Positions 26,810 through 50,867 of a stretch of 64,000 bases of DNA are shown piece by piece. Each line of letters begins with the position of its first letter. Within the stretch, counting starts at the first letter, position 1. Position numbers and translations under genes: made by a program. The stretch is from Uranotaenia lowii (Eukaryota; Arthropoda; Insecta; Diptera; Culicidae). The notes beneath the pieces are model-generated. The model did no database searches, had not been told where the DNA came from, and was given only the letters and a program-made list of their open reading frames with translations. The stretch is taken from assembly GCF_029784155.1 (NCBI RefSeq), contig NW_026597299.1:181001-245000 (forward strand), written 5' to 3'.

Positions 26810-27430
26810 TCACAGCTCGTCTCGTTCCTCCTCATCCCCCTCGTATTCGTAGTCCTCTTCGATCGGCTGCTCGTTGCAAATGTTGGCCACCTCGGAACAG
26901 AGCCGCACATCCGTATCCTTGACTTCGTCTTGCTGGAACAGTTTAATGATGGCTTCTTCTTGGTCCTCGACAATTTCCAAGCAAAGGTGCTTCAGGCTTT
27001 TGTTCAGGTCACCCTCCTGGACGAAATCCACTTCGGACATATCCGGATTCATGCCCGTTTCGGTCATCATTTTCAGCACCGTTGGCCGACCGGTTTTCTT
27101 GTAGCGAGCCTTCGCATAGTCATCCATTCGGTCGCAAACGGATTCCATCAGCTCGGTGAGGTAGATTTCCGATTTGGAAAGCTGGATGGTTTTTCGGTTT
27201 TTGGAATCCCCGGTGGCATCTAACCGGTAGTCTCCGATTTCCACCTTCTTCTTGGGGTCAACCTTTCCCACGGCGATCTCCATCTCATTCATGGTGGCCT
27301 TGCACACCAGACATTTAACTTCCTTACTGCTAATGGGACGGGCCGAGGGCATTTGGGCGGAACTGATGTTGATTAGCGATCCGATGATTACGGCACTGAT
27401 AGTAAGGAGGTAGCCAAGTCCAGCCTTCAT
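26810..27430 (-). CDS. sel: Canopy/seele-family saposin-like ER protein
   Basis: A single-exon gene of 206 residues. It begins with a hydrophobic signal peptide (about residues 1-25, likely cut after SSA). It then has six cysteines in the canopy/saposin-B arrangement (C40, C43, C99, C150, C178, C185), a charged helical middle, an acidic tail and a C-terminal RDEL, an ER-retention variant of KDEL. This matches the CNPY2/seele family. Those are soluble ER proteins acting in the folding or secretion of client proteins; fly seele is needed for processing in dorsoventral patterning. An open frame runs two codons further upstream from a TTG. I chose the ATG at 27430 because it starts the signal peptide. 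It is divergent from Rpn11. Confidence 0.9.
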   Translation of the reverse strand: MKAGLGYLLTISAVIIGSLINISSAQMPSARPISSKEVKCLVCKATMNEMEIAVGKVDPKKKVEIGDYRLDATGDSKNRKTIQLSKSEIYLTELMESVCDRMDDYAKARYKKTGRPTVLKMMTETGMNPDMSEVDFVQEGDLNKSLKHLCLEIVEDQEEAIIKLFQQDEVKDTDVRLCSEVANICNEQPIEEDYEYEGDEEERDEL

Positions 27431-30593
<3,163 letters not shown>

Positions 30594-30822: not shown

Positions 30823-30881
30823 AAAAATTAAGTTCTAGTCTAAATTTTTGAAATTTGATGATTTGATAAATGAATTGCTGT

Positions 30882-31375
30882 TTTGGATCACAACTTTAAA
30901 ATGTGATTTCTGGCCTTTAGAAGCGTTTTTCGACGATTCTAAGCTTAATTTGGGATCACAACTTTAAAATGCGATTTCTGGCCTTTAGAAGCGTTTTTCG
31001 GCGATTCTAAGCTTAATTTGGGATCACAACTTTAAAATGCGATTTCTGGCCTTTAGAAGCGTTTTTCGGCCATTCTGAGCTTAATTTGAGATCACAACTT
31101 TAAAATGCGATTTCTGGCCTTTAGAAGCGTTTTTCGGCGATTCTAAGCTTAATTTGGGATCACAACTTTAAAATGCGATTTTTGGCCTTTAAAAGCGTTT
31201 TTCGGCCATTCTGAGCTTAATTTGGGATCACAACTTTAAAATGCGATTTCTGGCCTTTAGAAGCGTTTTTCAGCGATTCTGAGCTTAATTTGGGATCACA
31301 ACTTTAAAATGCGATTTCTGGCCTTTAGAAGCGTTTTTCGGCCATTCTAAGCTTAATTTGGGATCACAACATTAA
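30882..31375. repeat. 68-bp satellite array, block 1 (about 7 units)
   Basis: The unit runs GGATCACAACTTTAAAATGC / GATTTCTGGCCTTTAGAAGC / GTTTTTCGGCCATTCTGAGC / TTAATTTG, 68 bp in total. The first unit (from 30882) is slightly divergent (ATGTGATTT). Units here vary between GGCGATTCTAAGC and GGCCATTCTGAGC. The block is cut at 31372-31375 by the TTAA-flanked foldback element. Confidence 0.95.
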
Positions 31376-34300
31376 CCTTCCAAAGCCGTTCGCAAAATTT
31401 CCGTACAAATCTATTTTTGATAAATTTGACCTTCAGTTTACGTACTTTCTCCTGGCCGCAAATATTGACCGATTTCGATGAATTTTAATTCATTGTTTAG
31501 ATAATTTATTCTAGTTTCTCAATATTGAAAAATAAAGTCGAAATATTTTACGAAATCATCAGTAGCTGATTCCGAATGAAAAAAGTCCCGAAAAAGAGCT
31601 CTTTTTGGAATGCCTATAACTTGAGACAGGTTCCAAATATTGCGCTGATTTTATAATATTTGGAATTGTCAAGAATAAATCTATCCATGGATGTATAATT
31701 TTTTGGTAGTCCAAAGGAAGTTTTGGCCGCTATCCCGGAACTTCCGGTAGAAAAAATTCTTACTTCAAAAAAGTCACCCAATTTTGGCTTTGCATTGCTG
31801 TATCTCGGTTACCAATGGATCGATTCTCTAAATTCAAATTTTAGTTTTTTTTCGTTAACTTTATTATTATTTTCGTAGAACATAGTTGGTTCCTCAAAAA
31901 TCTCAGTTGTTAAGTATATGGTAATGAAAGTCACATCTTTTTTGTCATTTTTCAAACTCCCCCTCGTGTCGGTTGGTTTACGCGATTTTGTTAGCGTGAT
32001 TTCTCTAAAATTTGAACTCAAATTGGTCACTTTTTATATACCTAGAGATTCATTAGAATCTCCTCTTTCGATTGACATACATTTTGTGTGGTGTTTTGAA
32101 AATTTGAAGCAACGTTATTCGAATTTACTGAAAGTTGCCAGATTTCAACCAGTTTGGTCCACGTTTTCAACAGGTAGGTGTACAAATCTCGCACCCCTCA
32201 CGTAGCTGCGGGAGAAACAAATTCTTTAGCTCTCTTTTTGTCGCTCACCAAATCTACCACCCAACCCAGCAGCAGGAGGAACTGCCGTCTCGCCGCGTGG
32301 TTTGTTGATTGATTGTGCTGATGCTGATGCCTCTTTGCGTAGTAAATGTTTTGATTTTAAAATAGAGAAAGATTATTTTTCCAAATTGAAATAAGCTTCT
32401 TGAATCTTTTTAGATATTTTATCATTAGAATTCTTCAGTGATACATTTGTTTTGAATGTTATCATGATTCTTTTCTGAATTTTCTGAATTTTAGAATACT
32501 TCAGTGATACATTTGTTTTGAATGTTATCATGATTCTTTTCTTTTATTTCAAGCAGTGTCTACTGCAGGAGACACAAAATCTATGATTCAAGTAACGAAT
32601 ATTCGGAAATTTCAATCAGAAACTTTAATCAGAAATCGAAATTTGAATCGGAATCTGAAATTAGAATCTGATATTTGAAATTGAATCTGAATCCGAAATC
32701 CAAATCTGAATCTGAAATCTGAAATCTGAATCTGAAATCTGAATCTGAAATCTGAATCTGAAATCTGAATCTGAAATCTGAATCTGAAATCTGAATCTGA
32801 AATCTGAATCTGAAATCTGAATCTGAAATCTGAATCTGAAATCTGAATCTGAAATCTGAATCTGAAATCTGAATCTGAAATCTGAATCTGAAATCTGAAT
32901 CTGAAATCTGAATCTGAAATCTGAATCTGAAATCTGAATCTGAAATCTGAATCTGAAATCTGAATCTGAAATCTGAATCTGAAATCTGAATCTGAAATCT
33001 GAATCTGAAATCTGAATCTGAAATCTGAATCTGAAATCTGAATCTAAAATCTGAATCTGAAATCTGAATCTGAAATCTGAATCTGAAATCTGAATCTGAA
33101 ATCTGAAATCTGAATCTGAAATTGGATCTTGAAATTTAAATCTGATATCTGAATCTGAAATCTGAAATGTGCAATCTGAAATCTGTAATCTGAATCTGAA
33201 ATCATGGACGTGTACTTTAGAAATGTTGCCCATCCATTAAAATATTATATCAAAAAAGATTCAAGCAATTCCTACAACAATAAAGCATTCATTTCGTTAT
33301 CACCATCAGCACAATCAATCAACAAACCACGCTGCGAGACGGCAGTTCCTCCTGCTGCTGGGTTGGGTGGTAGATTTGGTGAGCGACAAAAAGAGAGCTA
33401 CAGGATTTGTTTCTCCCGCAGCTACGTGAGGGGTGCGAGATTTGTACACCAACCTGTTGAAAACGTGGACCAAACTGGTTGAAATCTGGCAACTTACAGT
33501 AAATTCGAAAAACGTTGCTACAAATTTTCAAAACACCTCACAAAATGTATGTCAATCGAAAGAGGAGATTCTAATGAATCTCTAGGTATACAAAAAGTGA
33601 CCAATTTGAATTCAAATTTTAGAGAAATCACGCTAACAAAATCGCGTAAACCAACCGACACGAGGGGGAGTTTGAAAAATGACAATAAAGATGTGACTTT
33701 CATTACCATATACTTAACAACTGAGATTTTTGAGGAACCAACTATGTTCTACGAAAATAATAATAAAGTTAACGAAAAAAAACTAAAATTTGAATTTAGA
33801 GAATCGATCCATTGGTAACCGAGATACAGCAATGCAAAGCCAAAATTGGGTGACTTTTTTGAAGTAAGAATTTTTTCTACCGGAAGTTCCGGGATAGCGG
33901 CCAAAACTTCCTTTGGACTACCAAAAAATTATACATCCATGGATAGATTTATTCTTGACAATTCCAAATATTATAAAATCAGCGCAATATTTGGAACCTG
34001 TCTCAAGTTATAGGCATTATAAAAATAGCTCTTTTTCGGGACTTTTTTCATTCGGAATCAGCTACTGATGATTTCGTAAAATATTTGATTTATTTTTCAA
34101 TATTGAGAAACTAGAATAAATTATCTAAACAATGAATTAAAATTCATCGAAATCGGTCAATATTTGCGGCCAGGGGGACTTACGCAAACTCTCGGGTCAT
34201 ATAGACCCGAACAGCCTAATTACGGATTTTTTTGAGGGAGCACTTCCGGTGGTCACAGGAAGTTGCCTGGTACTACAGATTGTGTATTTCGTGATTCCCC

Positions 34301-34401: not shown

Positions 34402-34602
34402 TTAAAATGCGATTTCTGGCCTTTAGAAGCGTTTTTCGGCCATTCTGAGCTTAATTTGGGATCACAACTTTAAAATGCGATTTCTGGCCTTTAGAAGCGT
34501 TTTTCGGCCATTCTGAGCTTAATTTGGGATCACAATTTTAAAATGCGATTTCTGGCCTTTAGAAGCGTTTTTCGGCCATTCTGAGCTTAATTTGGGATCA
34601 CG
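34402..34602. repeat. 68-bp satellite array, block 2 (about 3 units)
   Basis: It continues the array on the far side of the foldback element, from TTAAAATGCGATTTCTGGCC. It ends abruptly in GGGATCAC followed by unrelated sequence. Confidence 0.95.
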
Positions 34603-34901
34603 GCATTTCCCGATAGCTGCGTTATCGTTTAATACGTAGTGAATTTCGTGATAATCGCTTGCAAAGGAAACAGTGAAATTTGTTATTATTCTGATGAAAT
34701 GGTTGTTTTGCATAAGAATGTTTTGTGTGGAAAAAGCCCTTAAAAATTATGTGAAAAAAGAAATTTGAGAAAAAGTGGCAGTGGCGTTTTTTTTTTCGTC
34801 AAGCCGTGTGTGAAAAAAGGGTTTTATTGTAATGGTGTGGCCAGGGGAATTGTGAAGGTAATACTTCCCAGCCTATTTTGGCAAGTGAAAAAGGATGCTA
34901 T
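34603..34901. other. Non-satellite block, left part
   Basis: About 300 bp of unrecognised sequence between the satellite and the gypsy 5' LTR. Its continuation lies at 41210-42245, so the gypsy element inserted into a roughly 1.3-kb foreign segment inside the array. It has no domain-bearing frame. A T-rich tract and short frames are present. Confidence 0.5.
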
Positions 34902-35091
34902 TGTGTGGTCGCATAATGATTCTTGGCAACACGGGCTTGCACGTCAATGCCCAAGCCTCGCCAGTCTAGTGAACACCACCGCTAACTACGGCAGCTTCCT
35001 CGGATCAACCCCAAACTAAAGGTAAGGCATTTTCCCCGCATAAGCTCGAGTGGACAATTCCCGAGGCCCGACGCCCTGGCGGACTTGCATA
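34902..35091 (+). repeat. Gypsy 5' LTR
   Basis: It starts TGTGTGGTCGC and ends CTTGCATA. The non-canonical 3' end is set by the exact GCTAT duplication and by where the two LTRs stop matching. It holds a strong splice donor, AAAG then GTAAGG, at 35022. Confidence 0.9.
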
Positions 35092-36091
35092 ATGGCGATC
35101 CTGCTAGTTTAATCATTCGATTCTCTAGAACCTGTTGGGAATTGTCCAATTAATTGCCCGACAACATTGAACAAAAAAAATAGAAGATGGCTACCTTTAG
35201 CCATCGTGAGCTCTATAATTTGTTACCTATTCAAGATGGCCGAACCTGACGGCAATTCCGGCTACTATCAGTGAAAATGAAAAAAAATAAGATACCTGTA
35301 CAATATGGCCGACTGAGATGACAATTTAAATTACCTTCCCAAGTCAATGTTGGAAATTAAATACCTACCAGCTTATCTGAGAACGAGGATTTCCTTGTTC
35401 CTTGAATTTTTTAAATGCGTGAAATTTCGGTTTATTTTATGGTAGATTTGCGGATTGTGGATGACAACGAAGAGCAGATTGTGGACAAGCGAAACAGTAA
35501 AATGCAGATCGCGGACAGCCGTAATAGTGAATCGCGGTTCGTGGACAACCGCTCTAGCGGAATACGGATTGTGGACAACCGCTCTCGCAAAACACGGATC
35601 GTGGATGACCGTAACGACAACTTGCGGATCGCGGACGACCGCTGAGCTCAGATTTGCGGATCATGGACGACCGTAACGACGAAGAGCGGATTGTGGACAA
35701 CCGCTACAGTGAAATGCGGATCGCGGACGACCGCAGCGATGAATCGCGGATTGTGGACAACCGCTCTCGCAAAACACGGATCGTGGACGACCGTAAAGAC
35801 GATGTGCGAATTGAGGATAACCCCTGTATAAACTGAGGATCGCGGACCACCGCAACGATAGGGTCCAATAAGTATTAGAAAATTGCAGAACGGGTCGTCG
35901 ATGACCGAAAAATTATCTAACCTTATTTTGTAAAAATTGAGTATTGGCCCTCACAAATCCGCAGCAGGCATTTGATACCGAAAGCTAACATACAAATATT
36001 TTGCTTATGTACCCATAATCTCACGATAAACGCGTTTACATTATTGAAACGATATTGATCCGTTGAGTAAAGCAGTTTTCTTTTCTCACAG
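35022..36091 (+). other. Possible leader intron of the gypsy element
   Basis: The donor AAAG/GTAAGG lies inside the 5' LTR. The acceptor, a pyrimidine-rich CAGTTTTCTTTTCTCACAG, ends at 36091, 20 nt before the Gag ATG. Removal would take out 1070 nt including the primer-binding candidate and the hairpin-like repeats. No transcript evidence is available here. Confidence 0.5.
35443..35850 (+). repeat. 30-bp tandem repeats in the gypsy leader
   Basis: About 13-14 units of a GCGGATCGTGGACGACCGNA-like 30-bp repeat. The core CGGATCGT-GG-ACGACCG is self-complementary with one bulge, so each unit could fold as a short RNA hairpin. One frame encodes RIVDDRN-like decapeptides but is broken by a stop at about 35643, so coding is doubtful. 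Confidence 0.85.
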
Positions 36092-36111
36092 GTTAACTAA
36101 AACTCATAAAA

Positions 36112-37338
36112 ATGTACACCGGAGGGAAATACGTGCTGGCTCCCGATTTCGAGTCAGAAGGACCAGCTAGTGAATTCTTCGAAAACCTTGACGTAGACAA
36201 CATTTCACCTAGCTGCACTATTGTGGGTGGCTCATCGCCACGCGAGACCAACGCCGCAAACGAAAGAGAAACGATGCCCCACGCCGATCACGAATTCCAC
36301 AAAAGGATTAATCGTTTTGGAGAAGAGTTACGTGCGTTGGAAAAAGCTTTCAACTCGATAAATCACCAAAACCCGTTGCACGTTTCCCCTAGCGATGTTG
36401 AACGCAGTTGGAATGTCGCCAATAATTCAACTAAAGGTACCAACATCATCCGTTGGGAGAGTATCCAACCGTTCCCAAACGATGTCCCCGCAAACAAAAT
36501 GTGGGAACAGTGGATACGATTCATCGATCGTTTTGAAATTGCGGCGTCCCTCTACAACGCTAATGATTCGGTTCAACGATCTCAACTCCTGTTCCTCGCA
36601 ATGGGGGAAAAACTTCAAGAAATAGTTAGGGCGGCCAGACTTCGCCCAAACCTCCTTGAACCGAATTGCTACCGCATATTCATCAGAAATATCGAAGATT
36701 ACTTACGATCGATGATTGACATCACGGCGGAACATGAGTCATTCTCTACAATGAGACAGGAACGAGATGAACCAACGATGACCTTTCACGCTCGACTCAT
36801 GGAGAAAGTTCGCCTCTGTGGGTACAGCAGCGGCGACCAGGACCGCTTCGTACGGACGCAATTGTTGAAAGGGATGCGAAGTAGAACACTGGCGAAGGAA
36901 TCAAGGATTCATGAGTACAGCTCCACTAAGATAGTACAGTTGGCCACCCGTGAAGAAGCTTTACCTTCAGAAGCTACTCCCACCGAAACACAACAGGCTT
37001 TCGCAGTAGATCGTAGATCTCAGCGGACGCCCAATGAAAGTGGTGCCATGAAGCGTGACCGAAGCTTTACACGAGATACATTCAACGCCAAGAAAAAACG
37101 TCATGGTAATGAAGCAAACTACAAACAGGGTCGTAGATCAAGATGTCCACAATGTAATCATCTGTTTCATAAATATGGCAAATGTCCTGCGGAAGATAAG
37201 GACTGCAAAAAATGCGGGAGGCTAGGTCATTTTGCAGCCACATGTCATCAAAAGAAAAGACACGCCAACAACATTCATGTCAAAACTCCAGGATGGAGCG
37301 ATTCAGAAGATGAGAAGAAGGTAACTACTACTGAATAA
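36112..37338 (+). CDS. gag: Gypsy Gag
   Basis: A 408-residue frame. The central region (about residues 125-265, from MWEQWIRFIDRFEIAA onward) has the helical retrotransposon-Gag layout. The C-terminus has two CCHC zinc knuckles (about 345-378), C-x2-C-x4-H-x4-C each, followed by an acidic DSEDEKK tail. Gag packages the element RNA into particles. The start ATG at 36112 follows AAAA, and the probable leader-intron acceptor lies just upstream. The last five codons and stop (from 37321) lie in an intron-like segment. Without splicing, Gag ends here. With splicing it would continue into Pol. Confidence 0.9.
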   Translation: MYTGGKYVLAPDFESEGPASEFFENLDVDNISPSCTIVGGSSPRETNAANERETMPHADHEFHKRINRFGEELRALEKAFNSINHQNPLHVSPSDVERSWNVANNSTKGTNIIRWESIQPFPNDVPANKMWEQWIRFIDRFEIAASLYNANDSVQRSQLLFLAMGEKLQEIVRAARLRPNLLEPNCYRIFIRNIEDYLRSMIDITAEHESFSTMRQERDEPTMTFHARLMEKVRLCGYSSGDQDRFVRTQLLKGMRSRTLAKESRIHEYSSTKIVQLATREEALPSEATPTETQQAFAVDRRSQRTPNESGAMKRDRSFTRDTFNAKKKRHGNEANYKQGRRSRCPQCNHLFHKYGKCPAEDKDCKKCGRLGHFAATCHQKKRHANNIHVKTPGWSDSEDEKKVTTTE

Positions 37339-37434
37339 CATTTCATGAAACTTGTATTTAAAAAGGATTGAAATTAAAAAAAATAAAATAAAAATAAAAC
37401 AAAAATGGAAAACATTTATTTTTATTTGTTTTAG
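37321..37434 (+). other. Candidate intron between Gag and Pol (114 nt)
   Basis: It begins GTAACT directly after the GAAGAAG codons of Gag and ends TTTGTTTTAG. It is very AT-rich, unlike the flanking coding sequence, and carries the Gag stop codon at 37336-37338. Both junctions fall at codon boundaries, so removing it leaves Gag and Pol in one frame. Confidence 0.65.
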
Positions 37435-39415
37435 AAACCGCATGCCCAAGAGTTGAATATCTTGACTTTGTCAGACGCCCTCATCGATTGTCGCCTTGGT
37501 TCGTCAAGTCCAATCCGTTTCCTCATAGACTCTGGAGCTGACGTCAACATCATCGGTGGTGATGATTGGAGACGTCTTAAAAGTGAATTTCACGCTGGAA
37601 AGGCTTTTCTCAGGCCAATTGAGTTGGACACATGCACAGACCTGCGATCATATGCATCTAGTAACCCTATTGCTGTCCGATGTAGCTTCAAAGCTAGGGT
37701 AGAAGTTCTAGGATACAGCAAACCTTCTATAGAGGCTGATTTCCTCGTGGCTGACGCAGGGCGCCGTTCTTTGTTAGGACGAGCAACAGCAGGAGATCTG
37801 AAATTGTTAAGAGTAGGAATTTCTGTTAATTCTTGTGAAACTGTGGAGCAATTCGAAAAGTTTCCTAAAGTGCCGGGTGTTCTTATAAGATTTAGCGTGG
37901 ACAAATCTGTACCACCCACGAAAAACGCTTATTTTAACGTCCCCGCTGCCTTTAGAGAAAGTGCTAAATCGAGACTCCAAGAAATGGAAAATCAGGGTAT
38001 TATAGAACGAGTCACGACCGCCCCCGATTGGATAAGTGGGATGTCAGCGGTACCCAAAGGAAGAAACGATTTTCGCTTGGTCGTGAACATGCGCGCTCCT
38101 AACCGCGCGATCAAGCGAGAATATTATCGCATGCCTCTCTTGGACGAGATGAGAATTAAGCTACATGGAGCTAGATATTTTTCTAAATTGGATATTTCGA
38201 ATGCTTTCTATCACTTGGAGCTTCATGAGAGTTCTAGAGACTTAACGACGTTTCTAGCGGAAACGGGTATGTTTCGCTTCACGCGATTAATGTTCGGGGT
38301 CAATGCAGCTCCTGAGATATTCCAACGCGAAATGTCTCGGATCCTAGAAAACGTGGAAAATAAAATCGTATTCATTGACGACATCCTTGCGTACGCCGGT
38401 AGCTTGAACGAACTGCGCAGGACGGTTGCCCAAATCCTCAGAATACTGCGATCTAATAATCTCACCATTAATGCTTCAAAATGTGAATTCGACAAAACCA
38501 GAATAAAATTTCTAGGTCACGAATTAGACGAACACGGCTTTCACATCGATGAGGCCAAAGTAGCAGATATTCGAAAATTCAGGAAACCATCAACTACTTC
38601 AGAGCTCAGAAGCTTTCTGGGCTTAGCTTCCTATGTCAGTCCATACATCCGCAACTTTGCGGACACTGCGAGCCCCCTGTGGGCAGTTATCAGTTCTAAC
38701 ACATGGATATGGGGAGACGACCAAACTAAGTCATTTGAATCCTTAAAAGATCAGATCACGCATCGTACAATCTCACTCGGGTATTTCTCGGAGTCTTCAA
38801 AAACAATCTTGTACACAGACGCTTCCCCTAATGCTCTTGGAGCCGTCCTTGTGCAAGACGATGCTAAGCACCCTCCTCGAATAATTTCCTTTGCATCGAA
38901 AGCACTCACCCCAACTGAAAAACGATACCCTCAAAACCAACGTGAAGCACTGGGTGCAGTATGGGCTGTCGAACACTTTGCGTATTTTTTGCTTGGGCGG
39001 CAATTCACTCTTCGTACTGACGCCCAGGGATTCACCTTTATACTTAACAGATCGCGAGAAGCTTCTAAACGAGCCTTAACACGCGCGGACGGTTGGGCAC
39101 TTAGGCTTAGTCCCTACAATTTTGAAGTTGAATACGTTCGGGGCCAAGATAATATTGCAGATTCGTCATCGCGGTTATACGAAGGTGAAGATGGGCCCTT
39201 CGAAGAGCACGTTAGTCCCTGGGAAATAGCCTCCCTGCAGGCCAACACGATACAGTTCATCACTGAAGACGAGATTAAAAAAGCTACCGCGTCCGATCAA
39301 CAACTCACGGAAGTACAAGACGCCCTAGAGACAGGAGTTTGGCCTAAACACCTCAAAAGATATGAGGCACTTAGCAAAGATTTATCTGTGGAAGAGGGAA
39401 TTTTGATAAAAACAG
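37435..39415 (+). CDS. pol: Gypsy Pol: protease, reverse transcriptase, RNase H
   Basis: Continuous from the acceptor at 37435. The aspartic protease DSGADVNII is at about 37528. The reverse transcriptase spans about 37900-38560, with the catalytic FIDD box at 38371-38382 (xxDD form). The tether follows, then RNase H with YTDAS at about 38812 and a later DNIADSSSR-type end. The segment uses no ATG of its own near the start; the first in-frame open codon is a TTG at 37453. It therefore needs fusion to Gag by splicing or some recoding. All polymerase catalytic residues look intact. The frame closes at a TGA (39418-39420) inside a second intron-like segment. Confidence 0.9.
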
Positions 39416-39476
39416 GTTGATCATTATATTTGTCTCCTTTGGTTCGCATAATTAAAATAAACTTCCTAATTGACAG
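39416..39476 (+). other. Candidate intron between RNase H and integrase (61 nt)
   Basis: It starts GTTGATCA, ends AATTGACAG, and is AT-rich. It holds the in-frame TGA. The donor splits a glycine codon after its first base and the acceptor restores the same glycine, so the frame is kept. At 61 nt it has typical dipteran intron size. Confidence 0.65.
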
Positions 39477-40645
39477 GTTGCGCAGTGATTCCGGAGTCGC
39501 TTCGACGAGCCACATTGGAAGTAGCCCACGAAGGCCATCCTTCTTCAGCTAAACAGAAAAGCATTCTGAGGCAACGCGTGTGGTGGCCAGGTATGTCCAA
39601 AGATGCGGAATCTTGGGTGGAGTCTTGCCAAATTTGTGCAACTAACGGTAAACCTGAAAAAACCACACCAATGCAACGAACATTTTCACCCAAAACGGTT
39701 TGGGAAACGTTGGCCTTGGACTTCAATGGACCTTATCAGAAATTTGGCGGTAGTTCTATTCTGGTCATTATTGATTACCGCTCTAGATATATAATCGCGC
39801 GACCCGTAAAATCAACGAGTTTTGAAAATACTCGGAAAATATTAGACGACGTTTTTGAAAAGGAAGGTTTCCCACAGAATATTAAGTCTGATAACGGACC
39901 TCCATTCAACGGCGACGATTATCAGGAGTATTGCAAAGAACGCGGAATAAACGTTTTGTATTCTACGCCCCTGCATCCTCAGCAAAATGGCCTAGCAGAG
40001 AGTTGTATGAAGCTGGTAAATAAAGCAATGGCAGCAGCACATACGAAAGGAACTAACTATGTAGAGGAACTTAACGCTGCTGTGCGAGCTTACAACGCTG
40101 CCTCCCATTCTGTAACTAAAGTTCCGCCCGAAGAAGTTATGATGGGTAGGAAAATAAAGCGTAATCTTCCGTTAATATGTCGCGGTAAAGTTCAAATAGA
40201 TGACGACTTATTAAACTCTAGGGACCGAATGTCTAAGCTTACAGCTAAGGAACGAGAGGATAAAAAACGCGGCGCTCGCTCATGTCGTATAAAACCCGGA
40301 GATACCGTCATAGTAGAACGCCACACACGAGCTAAAGGAGATTCACGTTTCGATCCTCGGAAATTCACCGTTCTGAAGGAAAATCATGGCAATCTCTTAC
40401 TGAATGATGAAGCTGGACAACTCCTTAAACGGCACGTTTCCCAGACCAAGAAGGTTCACGTTTGGAGGCAGATTAAAAGCACATCCGATAATGCAGGCGA
40501 TCAACAGCATTCTATAGTTGAGCAACATGAGAAAACTCCAGCAATTTCTCCAACCGATAATGTCCGTCGATCCACAAGAGTTAAACAGCCTTCAGTTTTT
40601 CTTCAAAACTACGTTTACGACATGCACACCGTAAACGAATCATAA
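39477..40645 (+). CDS. pol (integrase): Gypsy integrase
   Basis: About 389 residues. It has an N-terminal HHCC zinc-binding domain (H-x3-H about 39528-39540, then CQIC about 39633-39644). The catalytic core has D in ALDFNGPY (about 39720), D in SDNGPP (about 39890) and E in NGLAES 35 residues later, giving a complete D,D-35-E triad. A basic C-terminal part follows, with a KPGDTVIVERH-like region of the SH3-type DNA-binding domain. The enzyme joins element DNA to the chromosome. No chromodomain is seen. It is separate from the RT frame only because of the 61-nt segment. Confidence 0.9.
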
Positions 40646-41019
40646 GATCCGGATGTCCAGTTAAAATAAACCTAAAATAAATGAAAAAATCATAAAAATA
40701 TTTCAACATCTTACCATGATACGTTTAGTTAAAATTTGCAATCCTTTGTTTGTTTTTGTTTTGGTCGCCGCACCCTTTGATGGCGAAAGAGATAAGAGGG
40801 AAAACAGCAAGAATGTTTTGGTCAACTGTGGTACTGCGAAACACTGGGAAAAAATGTTCATTTTTTATTGAAAGTTTATTATGGTATTTCGGAAGTTATT
40901 AACAATACACCTAAAAAAAAAATAAATCAATAAAACTAAATTATTATCGAAAAAAAGTAAAGAAACCGAACAAATAGTCAGTTTTATCCTTTGCAAATTT
41001 CTTTAGGGAAGAAGGAGGA

Positions 41020-41209
41020 TGTGTGGTCGCATAATGATTCTTGGCAACACGGGCTTGCACGTCAATGCCCAAGCCTCGCCAGTCTAGTGAACACCACCGC
41101 TAACTACGGCAGCTTCCTCGGATCAACCCCAAACTAAAGGTAAGGCATTTTCCCCGCATAAGCTCGAGTGGACAATTCCCGAGGCCCGACGCCCTGGCGG
41201 ACTTGCATA
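41020..41209 (+). repeat. Gypsy 3' LTR
   Basis: It reads identical to the 5' LTR over 190 bp, preceded by the polypurine tract AGGGAAGAAGGAGGA and followed by GCTAT. Confidence 0.9.
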
Positions 41210-42245
41210 GCTATAAATTGGTGACATTAATAAATTATATAGAAAATTTGAAAGAAAAATTGCCCACGGCAAAATATGTATGGCTTAAGAAGAATCATGG
41301 CTACGGAAACTACGTAAAGAGAGAATCTTAAGCGGAGAGGTGCCCGAAATTTACAAGCAGTTTTGAATTTCCGAACAGCTTGCTGTGATGCGACAAAATA
41401 CGCGACTGGTGGTAGTTGGAAAGTATCTGAAGCTGGTTGTAAATAAATTAATGATACGAAGTGAAAATATGATGTGACACGCTTACGGCCTACTATGACG
41501 TAGAGGTCAAAATGCGATTAGAAGAGCAATGTTCAATCGCTTCCAAAGAGCCAGGCGGGGCGAGGTTTTCTTGAATGCATGGTTACTCCGGTCGTTACTG
41601 CAATTCGGTTGTTAATAACTAGCTCGTAGAGTTTGTGTTGCGCGTGGTGCGGAAAGCCTAATTTGTCCTTTATAATATCGCGTTTGGCGGGAGTGCGTGC
41701 ATGCCTGTTTGAATGGTGGACGTACCCTAAGTATCAAGAGAAGAATTCAGAGTTTGAACGTGTGCTGAAGAAGAAATGCGTATTGGTTTCATGGCACAAC
41801 AGTGTTTTAGATCAGGTGGAAATCAGTATGGATATAGGTAAGCTTCAAGTGTCTTGAGGTAAGATTGGTAAGAAGGTACGATTATTTCACTATATGTTCA
41901 ATTATTGCATTTAAAGAATATATTATATAAGAACGTACAAACAGTTGCCAGCTGGGCAGGTATCTACACGTATGCGGAATACCTGTCGTAGATTCTTAAC
42001 TCTAAATATGTTATGAATTTTATACGGTTGCGAAACTGTTTGCTCGTTCTACAAATAAGACATACACCTACACGAAACATTTTCATTTCATGACAGTTCA
42101 CACGAAGCCATGGTGTCGGGTATGTGGTAATTTGCATTGAAGATTGGCCGAACCAAAAATCTAAAGGATGCAAGTTAGCGCATACGTTGGCGAAACTGCG
42201 GTGAATCCGTGCACCCATGGTGGATTTTCTACATACATACATACA
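41210..42245. other. Non-satellite block, right part
   Basis: Continuation of the unrecognised segment at 34603-34901. It ends in (ACAT)n, about four units at 42229-42245, directly against satellite sequence. A short repeat tail of that kind is compatible with a non-LTR retrotransposon 3' end, but no reverse transcriptase is seen. Open frames at 41633-41857 (+) and 41964-42242 (-) have no recognisable domain. Confidence 0.4.
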
Positions 42246-42904
42246 TTCTGAGCTTAATTTGGGATCACAACTTCAAAATGCGATTTCTGGCCTTTAGAAG
42301 CGTTCTTCGGCCATTCTAAGCTTAATTTGGGATCACAACTTTAAAATGCGATTTCTGGCCTTTAGAAGCGTTTTTCGGCCATTCTAAGCTTAATTTGGGA
42401 TCACAACATTAAAATGCGATTTCTGGCCTTTAGCAGCGTTTTTCGGCCATTCTGAGCTTAATTTGGGATCACAACTTTAAAATGCGATTTCTGGCCTTTA
42501 GAAGCGTTTTTCGGCCATTCTGAGCTTAATTTGGGATCACAACTTTAAAATGCGATTTCTGGCCTTTAGAAGCGTTTTTCGGCCATTCTAAGCTTAATTT
42601 GGGATCACAACTTTAAAATGCGATTTCTGGCCTTTAGAAGCGTTTTTCGGCCATTCTGAGCTTAATTTGGGATCACAACTTTAAAATGCGATTTCTGGCC
42701 TTTAGAAGCGTTTTTCAGCGATTCTGAGCTTAATTTGGGATCACAACTTTAAAATGCGATTTCTGGCCTTTAGAAGCGTTTTTCGGCCATTCTAAGCTTA
42801 ATTTGGGATCACAACTTTAAAATGCGATTTCTGGCCTTTAGAAGCGTTTTTCGGCCATTCTGAGCTTAATTTGGGATCACAACTTTAAAATGCGATTTCT
42901 GGCC
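42246..42904. repeat. 68-bp satellite array, block 3 (about 10 units)
   Basis: Same monomer, ending at TTTCTGGCC, where the BEL/Pao element is inserted. Variants such as CAACTTCAAAATG, GCGTTCTTCGG and TTAGCAGCG occur. Confidence 0.95.
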
Positions 42905-43490
42905 TGTTGCGTGGGATTATAGCCCACAGATTGGGTTTCCAGTTTGAGCGTGTAGGAAAAAAGCGGTAAACGTCAGACGAAAAATAACGTATTTTTATTG
43001 GATTTCGGGATCTCGTCACAACGTGTTTTGCAAACGTTTACTAAGTTCCAAGTGCTTTAGCTTTTCGCGAATTTGTAGTGGATAATATTAGGTTTCTGAT
43101 ATCTCCAAGTAAGTTTAAGCTTTTTATATAATCGCCTTCAGTACTAATTGAAAGGTTTTCCTAAATCTAGCGATTTGTCGCTCGAAGTTGACGAAGAGCG
43201 TTCTCGTTGAACATTCCGGTTTCTAGGGCCAATTACACTGTGATTCAGCTCAAGTTGCCCCGTTTCCATGTAAGTTTTTTTCTGTATAGAATTGGAATAT
43301 TTGTTAATCTAAACATCTTATCAGACGCTAGGCAATCTGTATCCGGAACGCCGGAACGTAGCACTCGAGTACAGACGAGTTAAGAAAGGGAACTATTTGT
43401 AAGTAACCGAATTTGTTTTTGTTGTACCTCAATTTTAAATAAATTGCCTTTGCAGTTGAGTCGAGGACGGACTACAGAAAAACCCAAACA
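42905..43490 (+). repeat. BEL/Pao 5' LTR
   Basis: 586 bp. It contains two small GT-AG pairs of intron size in its 3' half: 43270-43324 (GTAAGT to TTATCAG) and 43399-43455 (GTAAGT to TTTGCAG). The same pairs are present in the 3' LTR. Confidence 0.9.
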
Positions 43491-43511
43491 AGCTCAAAAA
43501 TAACCTGCGGA

Positions 43512-43991
43512 ATGAGTGCTACGGATTCCAATCAACATAACCTGCAAATTTCATCCCAGCATAATTGCATAGGATGCACGCAGCCGGATGAAATCCAGGA
43601 TATGGTGGCATGTGACGAGTGCTCCCAGTGGTGGCATTATAATTGCGCCGGAGTAAATGCCTCTATTGCCGACAAATCGTTCCGTTGTGCCCAATGTACC
43701 GGAAAATCCAGGAAAACGAATACTTCTTCGTTCCATACAATGCGATCCACTTCCTCAAAACATTCAACATCTTCGCTGGCCCGGCTCCGGTTGCAACAGC
43801 TGGAGGAGCAAAAACAGTTGGAAGATAGATTGAGGAAAGAAAAGGCAGAGCAAGCAGAGAAGGATCGATTACTCCTAGCAGAACAAGCCGAAAAAGATCG
43901 CTTCTATCTGGCGGAAAAGCACCAACTACAATTGGAATTGCTGGGCGAAGAATCTCAGGCAGGAAGCGAACGTAGTTTCGAGTCACGGGAG
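43512..43991 (+). pseudogene. BEL/Pao Gag N-terminus with PHD finger, cut by insertion
   Basis: The ATG at 43512 opens about 160 residues of BEL sequence. First comes a PHD-type zinc finger (about residues 19-63): C-x2-C, CDEC, H-x4-C within WWHYNC, then CAQC, a C4HC3 pattern. A Ser/Thr-rich link and a strongly charged coiled coil follow (about 95-150, LRLQQLEEQKQLEDRLRKEK and onward). PHD fingers usually read histone H3 tails, so this Gag may contact chromatin; that is inference. The frame ends in the LTR of the nested element (stop at 44001-44003) and continues in the same phase after that element at 46428. Confidence 0.85.
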
Positions 43992-46427
43992 TGTGGTAGA
44001 TAGATTCTAGGAAATGGTAACAGTGAACGAACTTAACATTCTTGGTACGCAAAATATGTGTATGCTTTTAACGACACATACTTTGATAGCAGATAAACGT
44101 TTAAAATAAACTGTGGTAATGAAACACACTGTGTTGATAGAGCGTGACATTCAATGCATGTAGTGGTGAGCTAGAAGAATTTTTAAAAACAATCACTACT
44201 ACATTAATAAAAGAGGATGGAAGAAGTTTTGGGGGGAATTGGATGACGGTTGAATCTGGTGAGTCGGTCTTTCAACGAGATTTGGTCCGAAGTGATGTGT
44301 TTCCGCATCTGGAGATTCGAAAGAAAAATTTGGATTGCAGCTACGACAATGGCGTGGTCTTCGCTCCCGGAACAACATAACCTGAATGAGGATCAGATTT
44401 TGATAACATACAAAATGGTGAGTATGAAGTGAATCTAAAATAGGATAATTTGAGAACGATGACGGTGAACATAATTTTTAGCCATTTTTGTGGCGGTATC
44501 ACTTTTCAGAAGAGTTTTTTTGAAAAGAATATGCTGTGTGTGATCGGGTGGCAGTACCTAGAAGCGCTAAATGAAAACTGTTGGGTGGCAGTACCCGAAC
44601 AAAAAAAAAAGAATGATCATGGGTGACAGGACCCAAAAATGAAAATTAAAATGCAGGGTGGCAGTACCCATGCTGTAAAATATTGATAGGGTGGCAGGAC
44701 CCAAAAGAAAAAAAACATTGTTGGGTGGCAGTACCCAGTCAAATGAAAAATGTTGTTAGGGTGGCAGTACCCTTAAAAAGAAAAAAAATCGCTGGGTGGC
44801 AGAGCCCAGGCAAATAATTAGAAGAGGGTGGCAGTACCCGGTAAAAAAATGTCAATGTTCGGTGGTAAGACGCAAAAATAAATGCATGATGATGGGGTGG
44901 CCCTAGACCCTAGAATGGAAATAGCTGAAAAAATATTCGAATGGTGTAAAAAAACAATTTTAATCTAACAATAAAATATAATTGAAAAATAACAGGGTGT
45001 CAGAGCTCGGTAGAAAAAATGATATTGTAAGTGTTAGTAGTCCGCCTGTTAAAAAAAAAGATGATGGGATGTCAGTACCCAAGAAGGAAAATTGAAGTGG
45101 TTGGGTGGTAGCATCCACAAAAAAAACGAAAGGGTGGTACGACCCTATTAAAAGAAAAAGAAATTTATGCTAAAGTAACATGACTGAAAAAAAAATTTCT
45201 GGGTAGCAGAAATTGAAACAAAAACCGTATTGAAATTCTCTGTGAAAAAAGCTGGTGAAGCCCATATGGAAAAAATGTGTGAGGGAAAAAATAAATGAAA
45301 AATTGTATGATGACCTTATATGTGACAAATAAGTGGATCATGCTGTGTTAAAAAAACATTAATGCCTAATTCTAAACATATACAAATTACCACTAATAGT
45401 CAAAAAAAAATTAATTAAAATTTGTTTTCTAAACACCTTTTAACTCAAACTTAATTTTCTGTTAAGCATAGAACGCAAAATAAAATTGGTATTGGGATAT
45501 AATCGAACTGATTAAGCTAATAAAATCTATCAAGAAAAAAACATGAAACAATTTTCTTGTGTTAAAGTATATTTAAAAAAAAGGAAAAAAATAGTTAAAA
45601 ATGAAATTTTGGGATCAATATTAAGTGCGATAATATTTTGAATAAGGAAACACTGAAGAACGATGATTGAATTTTGCAATGAATTATTTAAAAAAAGCAT
45701 TTTCGAGGGACGAAAATTACCAAGTACGAGATAATCCGGTCAGAAACATTTGATCCGTTTATGAAGTGCTTTATTATAGTTCCATTAATAAGAAGAAGCT
45801 TAATGTTCAATGAAATTTTATAAGACTGATGATTTATATTTTTAAGCAGTCCTTGAATGGTGATTAAAAAAAACGTTATCGATAAATATTATTTAAAAAT
45901 TAAGTATGTGGGAATAATTCTCTTACAAATAGATGAAAACCCTTACACCCACTGCCCATTGAACATCGTTGACAGAAATAAAATCATGTCATAAGGATGC
46001 TTGTTCTACCCACTTTGAAACTATTCTTGTTTACCACTTTATGAAATTTAAGAGTAGAGTAGTAGGCGAATGTGGTAGATAGATTCTAGGAAATGGTAAC
46101 AGTGAACGAACTTAACATTCTTGGTACGCAAAATATGTGTATGCTTTTAACGACACATACTTTGATAGCAGATAAACGTTTAAAATAAACTGTGGTAATG
46201 AAACACACTGTGTTGATAGAGCGTGACATTCAATGCATGTAGTGGTGAGCTAGAAGAATTTTTAAAAACAATCACTACTACATTAATAAAAGAGGATGGA
46301 AGAAGTTTTGGGGGGAATTGGATGACGGTTGAATCTGGTGAGTCAGTCTTTCAACGAGATTTGGTCCGAAGTGATGTGTTTCCGCATCTGGAGATTCGAA
46401 AGAAAAATTTGGATTGCAGCTACGACA
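43992..46427 (+). mobile_element. Small non-autonomous LTR element nested in the BEL gag
   Basis: 357-bp direct repeats at 43992-44348 and 46071-46427 start TGTGGTAGATAG and end CTACGACA (TG...CA), with one difference noted (G/A near 44267/46346). The TSD GGGAG lies at 43987-43991 and 46428-46432. The 1722-bp interior has no coding capacity. A TGGCG-type primer-binding candidate starts at 44350, one base after the LTR, as in the gypsy element. The interior holds a hairpin repeat array and long AT-rich DNA. This is a TRIM/LARD-like design that needs enzymes from elsewhere. Confidence 0.88.
44540..45140 (+). repeat. Array of GGGTGGCAGTACCC hairpin motifs, about 35-bp period
   Basis: About ten clear and several decayed copies of GGGTGGCAGTACCC are separated by about 20 A-rich bases, for example at 44548, 44582, 44656, 44690, 44722 and 44758. 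Each has a GGGT/ACCC stem, with compensating-type variants such as GGGTGGCAGAGCCC. It lies inside the small LTR element. Confidence 0.85.
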
Positions 46428-49400
46428 GGGAGCAGCTGACCGAAAAGTGGATCCAAAGTCAGGACATCGGTAATGAAAACCTGTTGGCTTCATCCACTCC
46501 TGTAGCGGCCCCGGTACATACTGGTGCGGTGCCGAAAATCTTACAGCTGCCAGCGATAGAGGAGGAATATTGTAGACCGGAAGATTCACGAATAGTCCAA
46601 GGAAGGCGACCAGAGGCAGCAACTAACAAGAAAGGCAGCATAGGTTACGCTAAACTTCCCCCAGCAGTACTGGGCACAAGGGAGTCTAGTTTTTCCCGGA
46701 ATTGTTGGCCAAATTCTGATGTTCAGCGTCGATCGTCGCATCCATTCAGTATGACAGTGGATCAAAATCCCCAGCCGAGATTTTCTTATGCAGAACTATC
46801 AGAGCCGGTAGATGTTTCCGGAGGTTCGTGGTGTCGAGAAAATAATCCCCCTCCAAATTCTCCACCTCTGCTCAACAATCAACTCGTTCAGCAGCAGCCT
46901 GTACTGCTCAATGCCCAGCAACTCGCAGCAAGGCACGTCGTATCCCGGGATTTACCCAGATTTTCGGGTGATCCATTAGAATGGCCGGTGTTCCTTAGCA
47001 CTTTCGAATCGACCACGGCCATGTGCGGAATTCAACCAGACGAGAACCTGGTTCGCCTTCAAAAGTGCCTGGTAGGAAGTGCGAGAGAAAAAGTTCTGAA
47101 CCTGCTCACAATTCCATCAGCGGTTCCAGAAATTATTGCTACCCTCAGGGAAGAGTGTGGCCGACCCGATCAATTGATACATTGTATGCTGTCTAAAATT
47201 CGCCGTGGCAGTCTGCCAAATGCAAACAAATTGGAAACTCTCGTTAGTTTCGGACGCGAAGTGAGGAATTTGGTGACGTACATTGAAGCCGCTCGTTTAC
47301 AGTCCCACCTGACTAATCCGGAGCTCCTTTCCGAACTGGTGTTTAAATTGCCTCCAAGTTTACGCCTTGAGTGGGGAAAACTCCTAGAAAACGTTCCGGA
47401 GCCGTCGCTAAGGGATTTCTGCAATTATGTGTCATCGCTCAGAACCGCTGCATGCAAAGTCACTCCACCAGCTGACCTCGCAATGGATGGTCAAATTCGA
47501 AGAGGAACCCGCAAAGAAAAAGAAACAGGCTTTCTCAATACTCATCAGGAGGTTTTCTCGAAAACGGAGAACACTTTGCCGAAGCAGAAAGGAGATCCCA
47601 GACCCTGTTTAGCGTGCGATAGGAAGGGCCACAGGGTCCGCGACTGCGAGAGATTCAAGAAATCTTCGTTGGACGATCGTCTGAAAGTAGTGCAGGAGAA
47701 ACAACTGTGTCGACGATGCTTGGCACCACACGGCAAGTGGCCGTGTCGAACGAGACAACCCTGCGGTGTGGACGGTTGTCAGGAAATGCACCATATGTTG
47801 CTCCATTGTAAGCCATCGCCATCCACCTCGTATGGTGCATCCGGAATTGTAACAACACATCGACACAAACAAAATTCCACGCTTTTCAAAATCATACCGG
47901 TTATGCTACATGGGAACGGCAAGTCTTTATTGGTCCACGCATTTCTCGATGATGGGTCCGACTTGACTCTCATCGAAAGCAAAGTCGCCGATGAACTGGG
48001 CCTAGACGGAGTAGAAAGACCTCTATGCATAGAGTGGACAGGTAGCGTATCACGGAATGAAGATTCTTCTCGTGTCGTGCAGCTGACGATATCCAAGCCG
48101 AAAAGTGAAGAAAGACATGCCCTGACGAATGTGCGCACCGTTCCAGATTTGGGATTACCGAAGCAGCCGTTGAACTACGACCAATTGGCAAAAGATTTCC
48201 CCCATCTTCGTGGTTTACCGATTTGCAGCTATACCGATGTTACTCCCAAAATATTGATTGGAGTCGACCATGCAAGACTGAAGTTAACGCTGAAAAGAAG
48301 AGAGAGAAGTGCTGGTGAACCCGTGGCAACCAAGACGAGATTAGGCTGGGTTATTTTCGGTGGACAGAGTGCTACGAATAATCTCGCCCGAACCATGGTC
48401 CACACCTGCAAGTGCAGCAAAGACGACGAATTACACGATCTTGTCAGAGAGTATCTAGCAGCCGAAAGTATGGGCATTGCCGAACATGCTCCGCCAGAAA
48501 CCAGCGAAGATCAACGTGCCCGAAGAGTCTTGCAAGAAACTACAAAGCGCACTCCGTCCGGGAAATACGAAACTGGTCTCCTCTGGAAATTCGACGATGT
48601 GAGTTTCCCACTCAGTTACTCGATGGCCGAACGTCGCTTACAATGCCTGGAGAGACGTCTTTCAAATGATCCAGCATTGAAGGAAAACGTGAATCAACAG
48701 ATCGAAGAATACCAGAAACTTGGCTACGCACATAAGGCAACCGAAAATGAACTCCGAGAACGGGATCCGAACAAGGTGTGGTACTTGCCCATTGGTGTCG
48801 TCCAGAACCCCAGAAAGCCTGGCAAAGTCAGGGTCGTCTGGGACGCCGCTGCGTCAGTGAATGGAACATCACTCAATTCAATGCTCCTCAAGGGGCCTGA
48901 CCTCCTGACGCCCTTGCTGAATGTTCTTTGCCGATTTCGTGAGAGGCAGTACGCAATTGCAGGTGACATCCGCCAGATGTTTCACCAGATTTTGATTCGT
49001 GGTGAAGACAAGCAATTCCAGCGTTTTTTGTGGCGTACCGATCCGAAAGCACCTCCTGATGTCTACATTATGGATGTGGCCACGTTTGGAGCGACGTGTT
49101 CTCCCTGTTCCGCTCAATATGCGAAGAATCTGAACGCCTCCGAACATCGTGACCGTTATCCAGAAGCAGCAGCCGCCATCGTAGAAGGCACGTATGTCGA
49201 CGACTTTCTCGATAGCAGAGATTCAGCGAGAGAAGCTGTCGAAATTGCGCAAGGAGTGGTCACAATAAACGGTGCAGCTGGCTTCCAAATCCCGACGTGG
49301 CAATCGAATTCCATCGAAGTTCTTCGAGAGATCAGCAACGAAAGCGAAAACTCCACGAAACGTTTTTCTGTGGATAGAATGACAGCAACGGATCGAGTTC

Positions 49401-49915
49401 TTGGGATGGTTTGGCGGCCAAGCCCAGACGTCTTCGTATTTGAAAATGTATTTCGTGATGATCTTCAGACACTGCTAACCGGACACATCATTCCCACCAA
49501 ACGTCAAGTTCTTCAGGTGGTAATGAGCCTTTTCGACCCCCTGGGAATAATCGCAGCCTTCACCATCCACGGAAAAATCCTCATGCAGGATATATGGAGG
49601 TCAGGTGTGAATTGGGACGAGTCTATCCGGTTGACGGATTTCGAAAACTGGAAGCGCTGGATAGGAGTGCTTCCCGACTTAGCGAAGGTGACGATTCCAA
49701 GATGTTATTTCCCGAACTACGATCCTATTAGCTATGATTCTCTGCAACTGCACATCTTCACAGATGCAAGCGAGACAGCTTACGCTTGTGTGGCATTTTT
49801 TAGAATCGTCGATCGAGGATCCCCGAGATGCTGTCTAGTAGCTTCGAAGGCGAAAGTTACCTCACTTCGACCACAGTCGATTCCTCGGAACGAGTTGAAT
49901 GGTGCAGTCATTTGA
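46428..49915 (+). pseudogene. BEL/Pao Gag-Pol: Gag, protease, reverse transcriptase, start of RNase H
   Basis: An open frame starts at 46223, but its first 68 or so codons are LTR of the nested element; BEL sequence begins at 46428. In order: Gag domain (DUF1759-like, from LPRFSGDPLEWPVFLSTF, about 46955-47440); Cys/His zinc fingers (CLACDRKGHRVRDC about 47605, then CRRC ... CGVDGC); DUF1758-type protease with HAFLDDGSDLTLI (about 47937); BEL reverse transcriptase (about 48760-49300) with YVDD at 49193-49204; and the start of RNase H with FTDASETAYACVAF (about 49758). It stops at a TGA (49913-49915) where BEL proteins normally read on, and the same frame continues directly after it. Confidence 0.9.
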
Positions 49916-50867
49916 GCGCGACTAATGGAGTCCAATGTAGACAGTCACCGGTTGAAGATATGCAAGCGATATTTTTGGACCGATTCATCCGTAGTGATTT
50001 CGTGGCTTCATGCCGACCCACGAAAGTACCGGCAGTATGTAGGATTCAGAGTTGGTGAAATCTTATCGAAAACTCAAGTCGACGAGTGGCGCTGGATAGC
50101 GTCAAAGCTGAACGTTGCGGATGCTGCGACAAAGTGGGGCAGTGGTCCCAATCTCGATCCGGACAACCAGTGGTTCAAAGGGCCCGAATTTTTATACCTA
50201 CCAGAATCCGAATGGCCGTCACGTAAGTTGAATCTGCCGGAACCAACCGAAGAGGTTAAGAAGGTATGTGTGCATCGAGAAATAGATCAACCCCTTATCC
50301 CATACACTACCTTCTCACAATTCGACAAGCTCGTCAAGCACATAGCCTATTTGTTTCATTTTTACCATCGCTGTCGAACCAAAAATAGAACTGAGAGTAC
50401 CATACTATCTGTATCGCTCGAGCAAAAGGATTTCGAGTCAGCTGAGGTTTCCTTGTGGAAAATGGTTCAAGAACAAGAATTCGGCGATGAACTCATGATT
50501 TTGCGAAAGAACATGTATCTTCCTTTTGAGAAGCGCAAACGATTGTTGAGATCAAGTCCTATTTTAAAACTCAACCCGATCCTAGACCCAGAAGGTATTT
50601 TGAGAGCCGAAAGCAGAATTGGTTCGGACGCGCTCTACTATCCGTACAACTTTCGTAATCCGATAATTTTGCCGAAGAGCCACCATGTTACGGAGCTACT
50701 TCTGATGAAGTATCATCAACGCTTCGGACATGCCAATTCACAAACAGTCCTGAATGAAATACAACAAAAGTTCTATGTGCAAAACCTTCGTACTCTTGTG
50801 AAATCCGTGGTCAGAAAATGTATGTGGTGCAGAGTTTATCGGGCCAAGCCAGCCAGCTGTACCAAAA
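49916..50867 (+). pseudogene. BEL/Pao Pol: RNase H end and integrase zinc domain
   Basis: Same frame as the preceding segment, after the TGA. It covers the second half of RNase H (YFWTDSSVVISWL about 49972, then KLNVADAATKWGSG), a linker, and the integrase zinc-binding region (HQRFGHA about 50710 with CMWC about 50820). Near 50865, in an AAAAA run, the reading frame shifts by one base, and the old frame runs on to a stop at 50968 without meaning. Confidence 0.88.

Follow-up and report, generated by a model that had tools for sequence, protein, structure and literature searches.

How can a retrotransposon make one Gag-Pol polyprotein from a reading frame that is interrupted twice? This question is raised by a 64,000-nucleotide (nt) stretch of the mosquito Uranotaenia lowii (contig NW_026597299.1, positions 181,001 to 245,000 of the forward strand; hereafter the window), in which a Ty3/gypsy long terminal repeat (LTR) retrotransposon occupies positions 34902..41209. 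The element is low-copy and recently active. We favour, with a probability of about 0.87, the reading that a pair of short, genuine spliceosomal introns interrupts its gag-pol frame.

Two intron-like segments in the gag-pol frame

The coding part of the element comprises a Gag exon of 1209 nt and 403 codons (36112..37320), a Pol exon of 1981 nt with a protease motif, reverse transcriptase (RT) and RNase H (37435..39415), and an integrase exon of 1169 nt with zinc-binding and rve domains (39477..40645, including the stop at 40643-40645), all on the + strand. They are separated by intron 1, or segment A (114 nt, phase 0, 37321..37434), with the borders AAG/GTAACT...TGTTTTAG/AAA, and by intron 2, or segment C (61 nt, phase 1, 39416..39476), with the borders CAG/GTTGAT...TTGACAG/GTT, where the slashes mark the exon boundaries. 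A preliminary description of this DNA had given these coordinates, lengths, frame arithmetic and GT...AG ends correctly to the base. The A+T content is 83% in intron 1 and 70% in intron 2, compared with 53-56% in the exons. In unspliced RNA the Gag frame runs five codons into intron 1 before it stops, as had been described, and five stops of that frame lie in the segment; the unspliced pol frame reads one further codon past its exon and then meets TGA.

The order of the Pfam domains (RT, RNase H, integrase) is that of Ty3/gypsy, and the hallmarks of this group (Metaviridae) are present, namely LTRs, a short target-site duplication (TSD), a primer-binding site (PBS) and a polypurine tract, the latter two recognized by eye. 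Gag and protease had no Pfam match. Zinc-knuckle-like stretches were seen by eye in Gag, and the protease motif DSGA stands at pol residues 32-35, ahead of RT, where Pfam reported no protease.

Splice-aware alignment of relatives' proteins to the DNA, which assumes only GT...AG ends, placed intron 1 at exactly 37321-37434, phase 0, with the reference P0260, and intron 2 at exactly 39416-39476, phase 1, with the references P0016 and P0002. Both segments have GT...AG ends and their removal restores the frame against homologues, as is expected of spliceosomal introns, and they are best read as short introns of this type within the gag-pol frame of a mobile element. When all GTs (284) and AGs (369) of the element were scored against a splice-site matrix and ranked, the donor at 37321 came fifth among the GTs, and the acceptors at 37434 and 39476 came second and fourth among the AGs. 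A further 48-nt "intron", called with P0016 in the variable C-terminus, was taken as an artefact.

Inheritance of the segments in U. lowii and mosquito relatives

The genome of U. lowii was searched with 451 bases around intron 2, and the resulting copy counts are lower bounds. At least four copies of the family were found, the window's included. Intron 2 has invariant ends across them; in a copy of 94% identity 6 of its 61 bases have changed, all in the interior. Intron 1 is readable in three copies including the window (114, 114 and 108 nt), again with invariant ends. The comparison with other copies, on which the preliminary description had staked its reading, went in its favour: intron 2 is kept in 4/4 copies and intron 1 in 3/3 readable ones. 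The second copy has LTRs that differ at 3/190 positions and a TSD of its own, GTGAT. The window element is bounded by a different one, GCTAT (34897..34901 and 41210..41214), which indicates that both segments were carried through separate insertions.

The same copies bear on the idea that the segments are decay, that is, insertions that disabled this particular element. The segments do carry stops or shift the frame, and damage is seen elsewhere in the family: the second copy has a 2-nt gap in pol and stops within the match, and the fourth has a 1-nt gap in integrase, with no gag in the DNA retrieved for it. The window element, on the other hand, has LTRs that differ at 0/190 positions and the same five bases on both sides, bearing out its earlier description as a mobile element, and all three of its exons are open. 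Between the window and the third copy, 10 synonymous and 3 nonsynonymous codon changes were counted over pol residues 89-660, a purifying pattern. As the segments are common to independent insertions and to a sister family, with conserved ends, we consider decay extremely improbable. In the third copy, positions 1-40 and 27-190 of the 3' LTR match separately at some 6 kb from each other; a later, nested insertion with a short duplication appears to have broken this repeat.

The sister family comprises three loci (L025-L027) with 83% pol identity and is represented by the NCBI model P0001. It has intron C at the identical place, phase and length (61 nt) as intron 2 of the window. The interior of this intron has diverged, with 26/54 positions identical, and the flanks are identical at 106/150 and 112/150. 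For the gag/pol intron of the sister loci a donor AAG/GTAGAT and an acceptor TTTTCTAG/C were assigned by eye, and P0001 joins gag to pol at exactly these sites; the splice-aware program set the ends elsewhere. A ACAGGTTG repeat that flanks intron 2 in the window was considered as the target duplication of an insertion and dropped, the sister-family intron being without it.

Gag-Pol and integrase might also be joined by recoding (frameshift, readthrough or ribosome hopping) or by reinitiation, and gag/pol frameshifting is described as common in retroviruses and retrotransposons in passages of PMC3735527. Against this, the open exons do not overlap, segment 1 holds its five in-frame stops and varies in length, the GT...AG ends are conserved between copies, and the pol frame has no ATG until residue 184, which lies past the protease motif. 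Such joining is thus very improbable. The preliminary description suggested that the output of Gag versus Gag-Pol is set by splicing rather than frameshifting; splicing is well supported as the most plausible route to Gag-Pol, and it may also set the Gag:Gag-Pol ratio.

A search of U. lowii with a piece of pol gave 71 matches, and intron 1 was surveyed in 44 loci (L023-L066, three of them copies of the window family), 42 of which were informative. An ordinary overlapping gag-pol frame, which would have spoken against the preliminary description, is not what these relatives have: the boundary is interrupted in 40/42 loci, and an in-frame stop follows within 15 codons in 39 of these 40. The segments measure 83-206 nt, plus one 321-nt call, and 28/40 are not a multiple of three. 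We make no claim about an unusual weakness of the gag/pol donors (G at the fifth intron base in 1/40); a likely host-gene donor in the window, judged by eye, is also without that G.

Two loci, L047 and L066, have no interruption. The former contains a frame of 1166 amino acids (aa) and has no close intron-bearing relative among the loci compared. The latter is one 1468-aa frame with 99.2% (3120 nt) and 97.9% (1412 nt) identity to L062, and it is without exactly the 206-nt GT...AG segment of L062, the call of which preceded any comparison of the two. Their flanks differ at 4/600 bases, and only four excisions yield the same product. With the interruption present in almost every relative examined, L066 is more simply read as a case of loss, as would be expected of a reverse-transcribed spliced RNA.

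Beyond U. lowii, 71 of the 93 mosquito gag matches consist of gag alone and extend to query residue 375, a count that includes the window's own. A [QKE]V pair stands at most 14 residues from the end in 65 of these 71, the remaining six being NCBI models. P0251, in which gag ends in the intron, and P0260, in which gag is fused to pol at that point, share 98.9% identity over 276 aa. Within this mosquito lineage intron 1 has a shared place and is an old feature. A scan of viral contigs for DNA of relatives found none.

The positions of introns inside pol, called by the splice-aware program, are given here in P0016 numbering (residue/phase). They are 179/2 in L059 and L060, fitting cleanly in L060 only; 526/1 in L055 and L056; 632/0 (site B) in L054; 660/1 in L029 and L030; 666/1 (site C) in the window and sister families; 724/1 in L061; and 769/2, in the integrase core after DYRS or EYRS, in L013-L016, L036 and L037 (55 nt) and in L038 and L040 (69 and 67 nt). 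The called introns span 55-213 nt. Six positions are clean, in that the side residues and the divided codon fit the relatives with no gain or loss; L061 (one extra residue) and L059 (wrong divided codon) were counted as uncertain. Within gag, a GT...AG segment of 58-66 nt was called at the same place in L029-L035 and L058. The pol of L031-L035, L039, L041, L045-L049, L052 and L062-L065 gave no intron call (L033, L063 and L065 aligned in part only), and the DNA between RNase H and integrase is uninterrupted in, for example, L031, L032, L034 and L035. The calls in L053, L057 and L058 were set aside as truncations, insertions or artefacts, as were the calls from the C-terminus, which is poorly conserved (L025, L027, L050, L051 and L056), and two long calls, of 1068 nt in L026 and 492 nt in L044. 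Calls of 738-824 nt in L029, L030, L042 and L043, also set aside, use the acceptor of intron 1 with a misplaced donor. Introns inside pol had been called unusual, a word that proves too weak: they are frequent in this lineage, with six clean positions in U. lowii.

A survey of mosquito pol proteins covered the best 120 of 539 relatives, 89 of which are not NCBI models. Among the latter, 58 read through to integrase and 24 stop at site 632 (B); two others end at query residue 563, one at 521, one at the window's own site (P0039) and three elsewhere. Read-through NCBI models were not counted as intronless, as the model may have spliced, and other read-through rows may stem from RNA. A quick 94-row tree places the window in a 14-row clade (SH-aLRT 92) together with 11 B-type rows and two NCBI models. 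Elsewhere in the tree B and read-through rows are interleaved, with at least nine changes on well-supported branches; some of the read-through rows counted here may, however, come from spliced models or RNA.

These data allow one to consider intron 2 as a regulated switch, in which partly spliced RNA would give Gag, protease, RT and RNase H without integrase, full splicing would add integrase, and an intron between RNase H and integrase would be selected in the clade. Within the window's clade all 11 raw open reading frames (ORFs) indeed end at site B, the only two read-through rows being the NCBI models. Site B lies 34 codons upstream of site C, and the window has C without B, as though C had taken the place of a lost intron; L054 contains B in its DNA (59 nt). 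Many relatives, however, have no intron there, neutral gain agrees better with the introns that precede RT or lie within RNase H or the integrase core, and the tree comes from a quick search with some open forks. We regard a switch as possible but doubtful, and the earlier suggestion that intron 2 would decide whether integrase is made is weakened by the 58/89 listed non-NCBI relatives that read through.

Several observations weigh against taking the two segments of the window as spliceosomal introns. With the reference P0246 the first acceptor moves 18 nt further on, and with P0002 a 207-nt segment at the gag end appears in place of intron 1. The donor at 39416 (CAG/GTTGAT) is weak (rank 37 of 284 GTs), no YTRAY branch motif was found in intron 1, and the sole CTAAT of intron 2 lies about 7 nt from the acceptor. 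In relatives the ends of intron 1 vary with the reference where the boundary is poorly conserved; the survey of 44 loci gave 132 or 126 nt for the window-family copies, and 321 nt for L046 versus 106 nt in another run. Constraint is not seen outside pol (3 synonymous and 4 nonsynonymous changes in gag of the third copy, 5 and 5 in integrase of the second). A deletion by chance on the predicted ends could have made L066, P0260 could derive from an intronless DNA copy, and splicing of this element is inferred from DNA and protein sequences. Finally, when all 256 dinucleotide end pairs were scored at each of seven pol sites, none of the sites had GT-AG as its top pair, and several other pairs scored slightly above it, partly since divided codons are under-scored. 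GT-AG was nevertheless in the top 3.5-9% at six of the seven sites (67% in L059, but 3.9% in L060 at the same site), which gives a Fisher p of ~0.001 with one row per site. The alignment score alone cannot separate GT-AG from other ends, and for that reason the conservation of the ends and the L066 comparison are the stronger arguments for introns.

The leader, the termini and the surrounding DNA

A third intron of 1070 nt, reaching from a donor in the 5' LTR to just before gag (35022..36091, + strand), is probable from the sequence, although a transcription start downstream of the donor would do away with it. With the same splice-site matrix, the donor (AAG/GTAAGG, at 35022 inside the 190-nt 5' LTR, 34902..35091) tied for ranks 2-3 of 284 GTs, and the acceptor (TTCTTTTCTCACAG/G, at 36091, 20 nt upstream of the gag ATG) ranked first of 369 AGs; both are invariant in the second and third copies. 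Removal of this segment would drop the PBS, the leader repeats and 18 of the 20 ATGs between the LTR start and gag. In the sister family, the LTR of which is mostly unalignable with that of the window, CCAG/GTAAGATG stands ~63 nt before the LTR end and an acceptor 18 nt upstream of gag. Among 13 loci with a readable gag start, eight have an upstream acceptor above 97.5% of random stretches, including three window-family and two sister-family copies, and five have none of that quality. The L040 copy has its tRNA-Arg-like PBS only ~60 nt before gag, with a very short leader in which the acceptor adjoining gag remains. L066 retains leader sequence resembling that of L062 (its 5' LTR was not identified), so its source RNA would not have lost the leader.

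The PBS (TGGCGATCCTGCTAG, 35093..35107, by eye) lies one base past the 5' LTR and has the same letters in the sister family and in L040. It is largely complementary to the presumed 3' end of tRNA-Arg; ARAGORN found no tRNA within the window, and the tRNA-Arg match thus depends on this presumed end. A tandem array of a 30-nt unit (GCGGATCGTGGACGACCGC-like) follows at 35464..35823; these leader repeats vary among the copies and are partly common to the sister family. The polypurine tract (AGGGAAGAAGGAGGA, 41005..41019, by eye) precedes the 3' LTR (190 nt, 41020..41209), which matches the 5' LTR with no mismatch.

A 68-bp satellite (TTTGGGATCACAACTTTAAAATGCG...) flanks the element on both sides (30881-31375, 34402-34601, 42244-42905 and 52424-62208), one stretch exceeding 9 kb, and an array of ~45 copies of a 13-bp tandem repeat is located at 32627-33203. 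Other features were recognized by eye: a BEL/Pao-like element at 46220-51815, with a 1231-aa frame that continues for 350 aa beyond one in-frame stop, and an integrase-like coding stretch in a different frame; a BEL-like partial ORF at 22600-24204; an ORF with a PHD-finger-like stretch at 43443-44003; an Rpn11/PSMD14-like host-gene exon at 29749-30405 with the likely donor AAG/GTAATT; and, on the minus strand at 26810-27442, a Canopy/seele-like secreted protein.

Proposed expression by splicing and comparison with known systems

Under the favoured reading of two spliceosomal introns, unspliced RNA would be both the reverse-transcribed genome and a Gag-only message, because the frame stops early in intron 1. 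Removal of intron 1 would fuse Gag to protease, RT and RNase H, and removal of intron 2 as well would add integrase. Removal of the leader intron would give translation-friendly mRNAs without the PBS, setting mRNA apart from template RNA. Intron 1 would stay because Gag alone must be made, and the pol introns, intron 2 included, would persist once gained because the copied genome is the unspliced RNA; the places of these pol introns differ from family to family.

Passages of PMC6317226, with its references 68 and 69, describe Ogre, a plant Ty3/gypsy element of the OTA/Tat clade, in which an intron between two polyprotein ORFs is spliced from part of the transcripts to yield the whole polyprotein. 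The window element resembles it in having an intron between polyprotein ORFs whose removal would open the full polyprotein, and differs in its mosquito host, in the place of this intron between Gag and protease, in a second intron before integrase and in the further ones of its relatives. Intron 1 may work like the Ogre intron, but the element is not classed there, as the intron precedes the protease motif. In copia and BARE1 (Ty1/copia), as outlined in PMC3735527, splicing separates Gag mRNA from Gag-Pol RNA; there the spliced RNA makes Gag only, whereas in the window element the unspliced RNA would do so and Pol would need splicing. Foamy viruses (Spumaretrovirinae) need spliced RNA for Pol, according to passages of PMC7828637. 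They make Pol as a protein of its own, by translation that does not depend on Gag, whereas the pol frame of the window has no start of its own ahead of the protease motif, and fusion would be needed to keep the protease. Cer1, according to passages of PMC10309623, must export unspliced RNA.

The element is probably mag-like, a lineage proposed by resemblance only. Passages of PMC3286476 give tRNA-Ser or Leu for the PBS of the mag lineage, with one tRNA-Arg case in Culex, and describe cqgypsy_25 and its kin from Culex quinquefasciatus as mag-lineage elements whose primer site is for tRNA-Arg and whose 5' untranslated region (UTR) contains tandem repeats. The window element likewise combines a tRNA-Arg-like PBS with 5' UTR tandem repeats in a mosquito Ty3/gypsy element. 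That account, compared by description only, mentions no internal intron for cqgypsy_25, nor do the excerpts of the mosquito surveys PMC3286476, PMC3026039 and PMC5248466 mention introns within elements. Among the open-licence PubMed Central matches listed, a set that leaves most subscription papers outside, no title or abstract start concerned gag-pol introns in animal Ty3/gypsy elements, and introns between polyprotein ORFs were described for plant elements only.

A bolder and tentative proposal is that the lineage runs its whole expression by splicing and repeatedly gains introns. The leader intron would discard the PBS, so that spliced RNAs would be poor templates and the intron-bearing RNA would be inherited; the gag/pol intron would set the Gag:Gag-Pol ratio, and shifting pol introns would gate integrase.

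Retrotransposons replicate via RNA and are expected to lose introns; here one intron is kept at a fixed place and others occur at several places in one genome. Two questions are open to direct testing in this lineage. The first is how unspliced genomes are protected from splicing. The second is the origin of new introns, which can be tested here since one genome offers insertion sites, copies and relatives free of introns next to one another.

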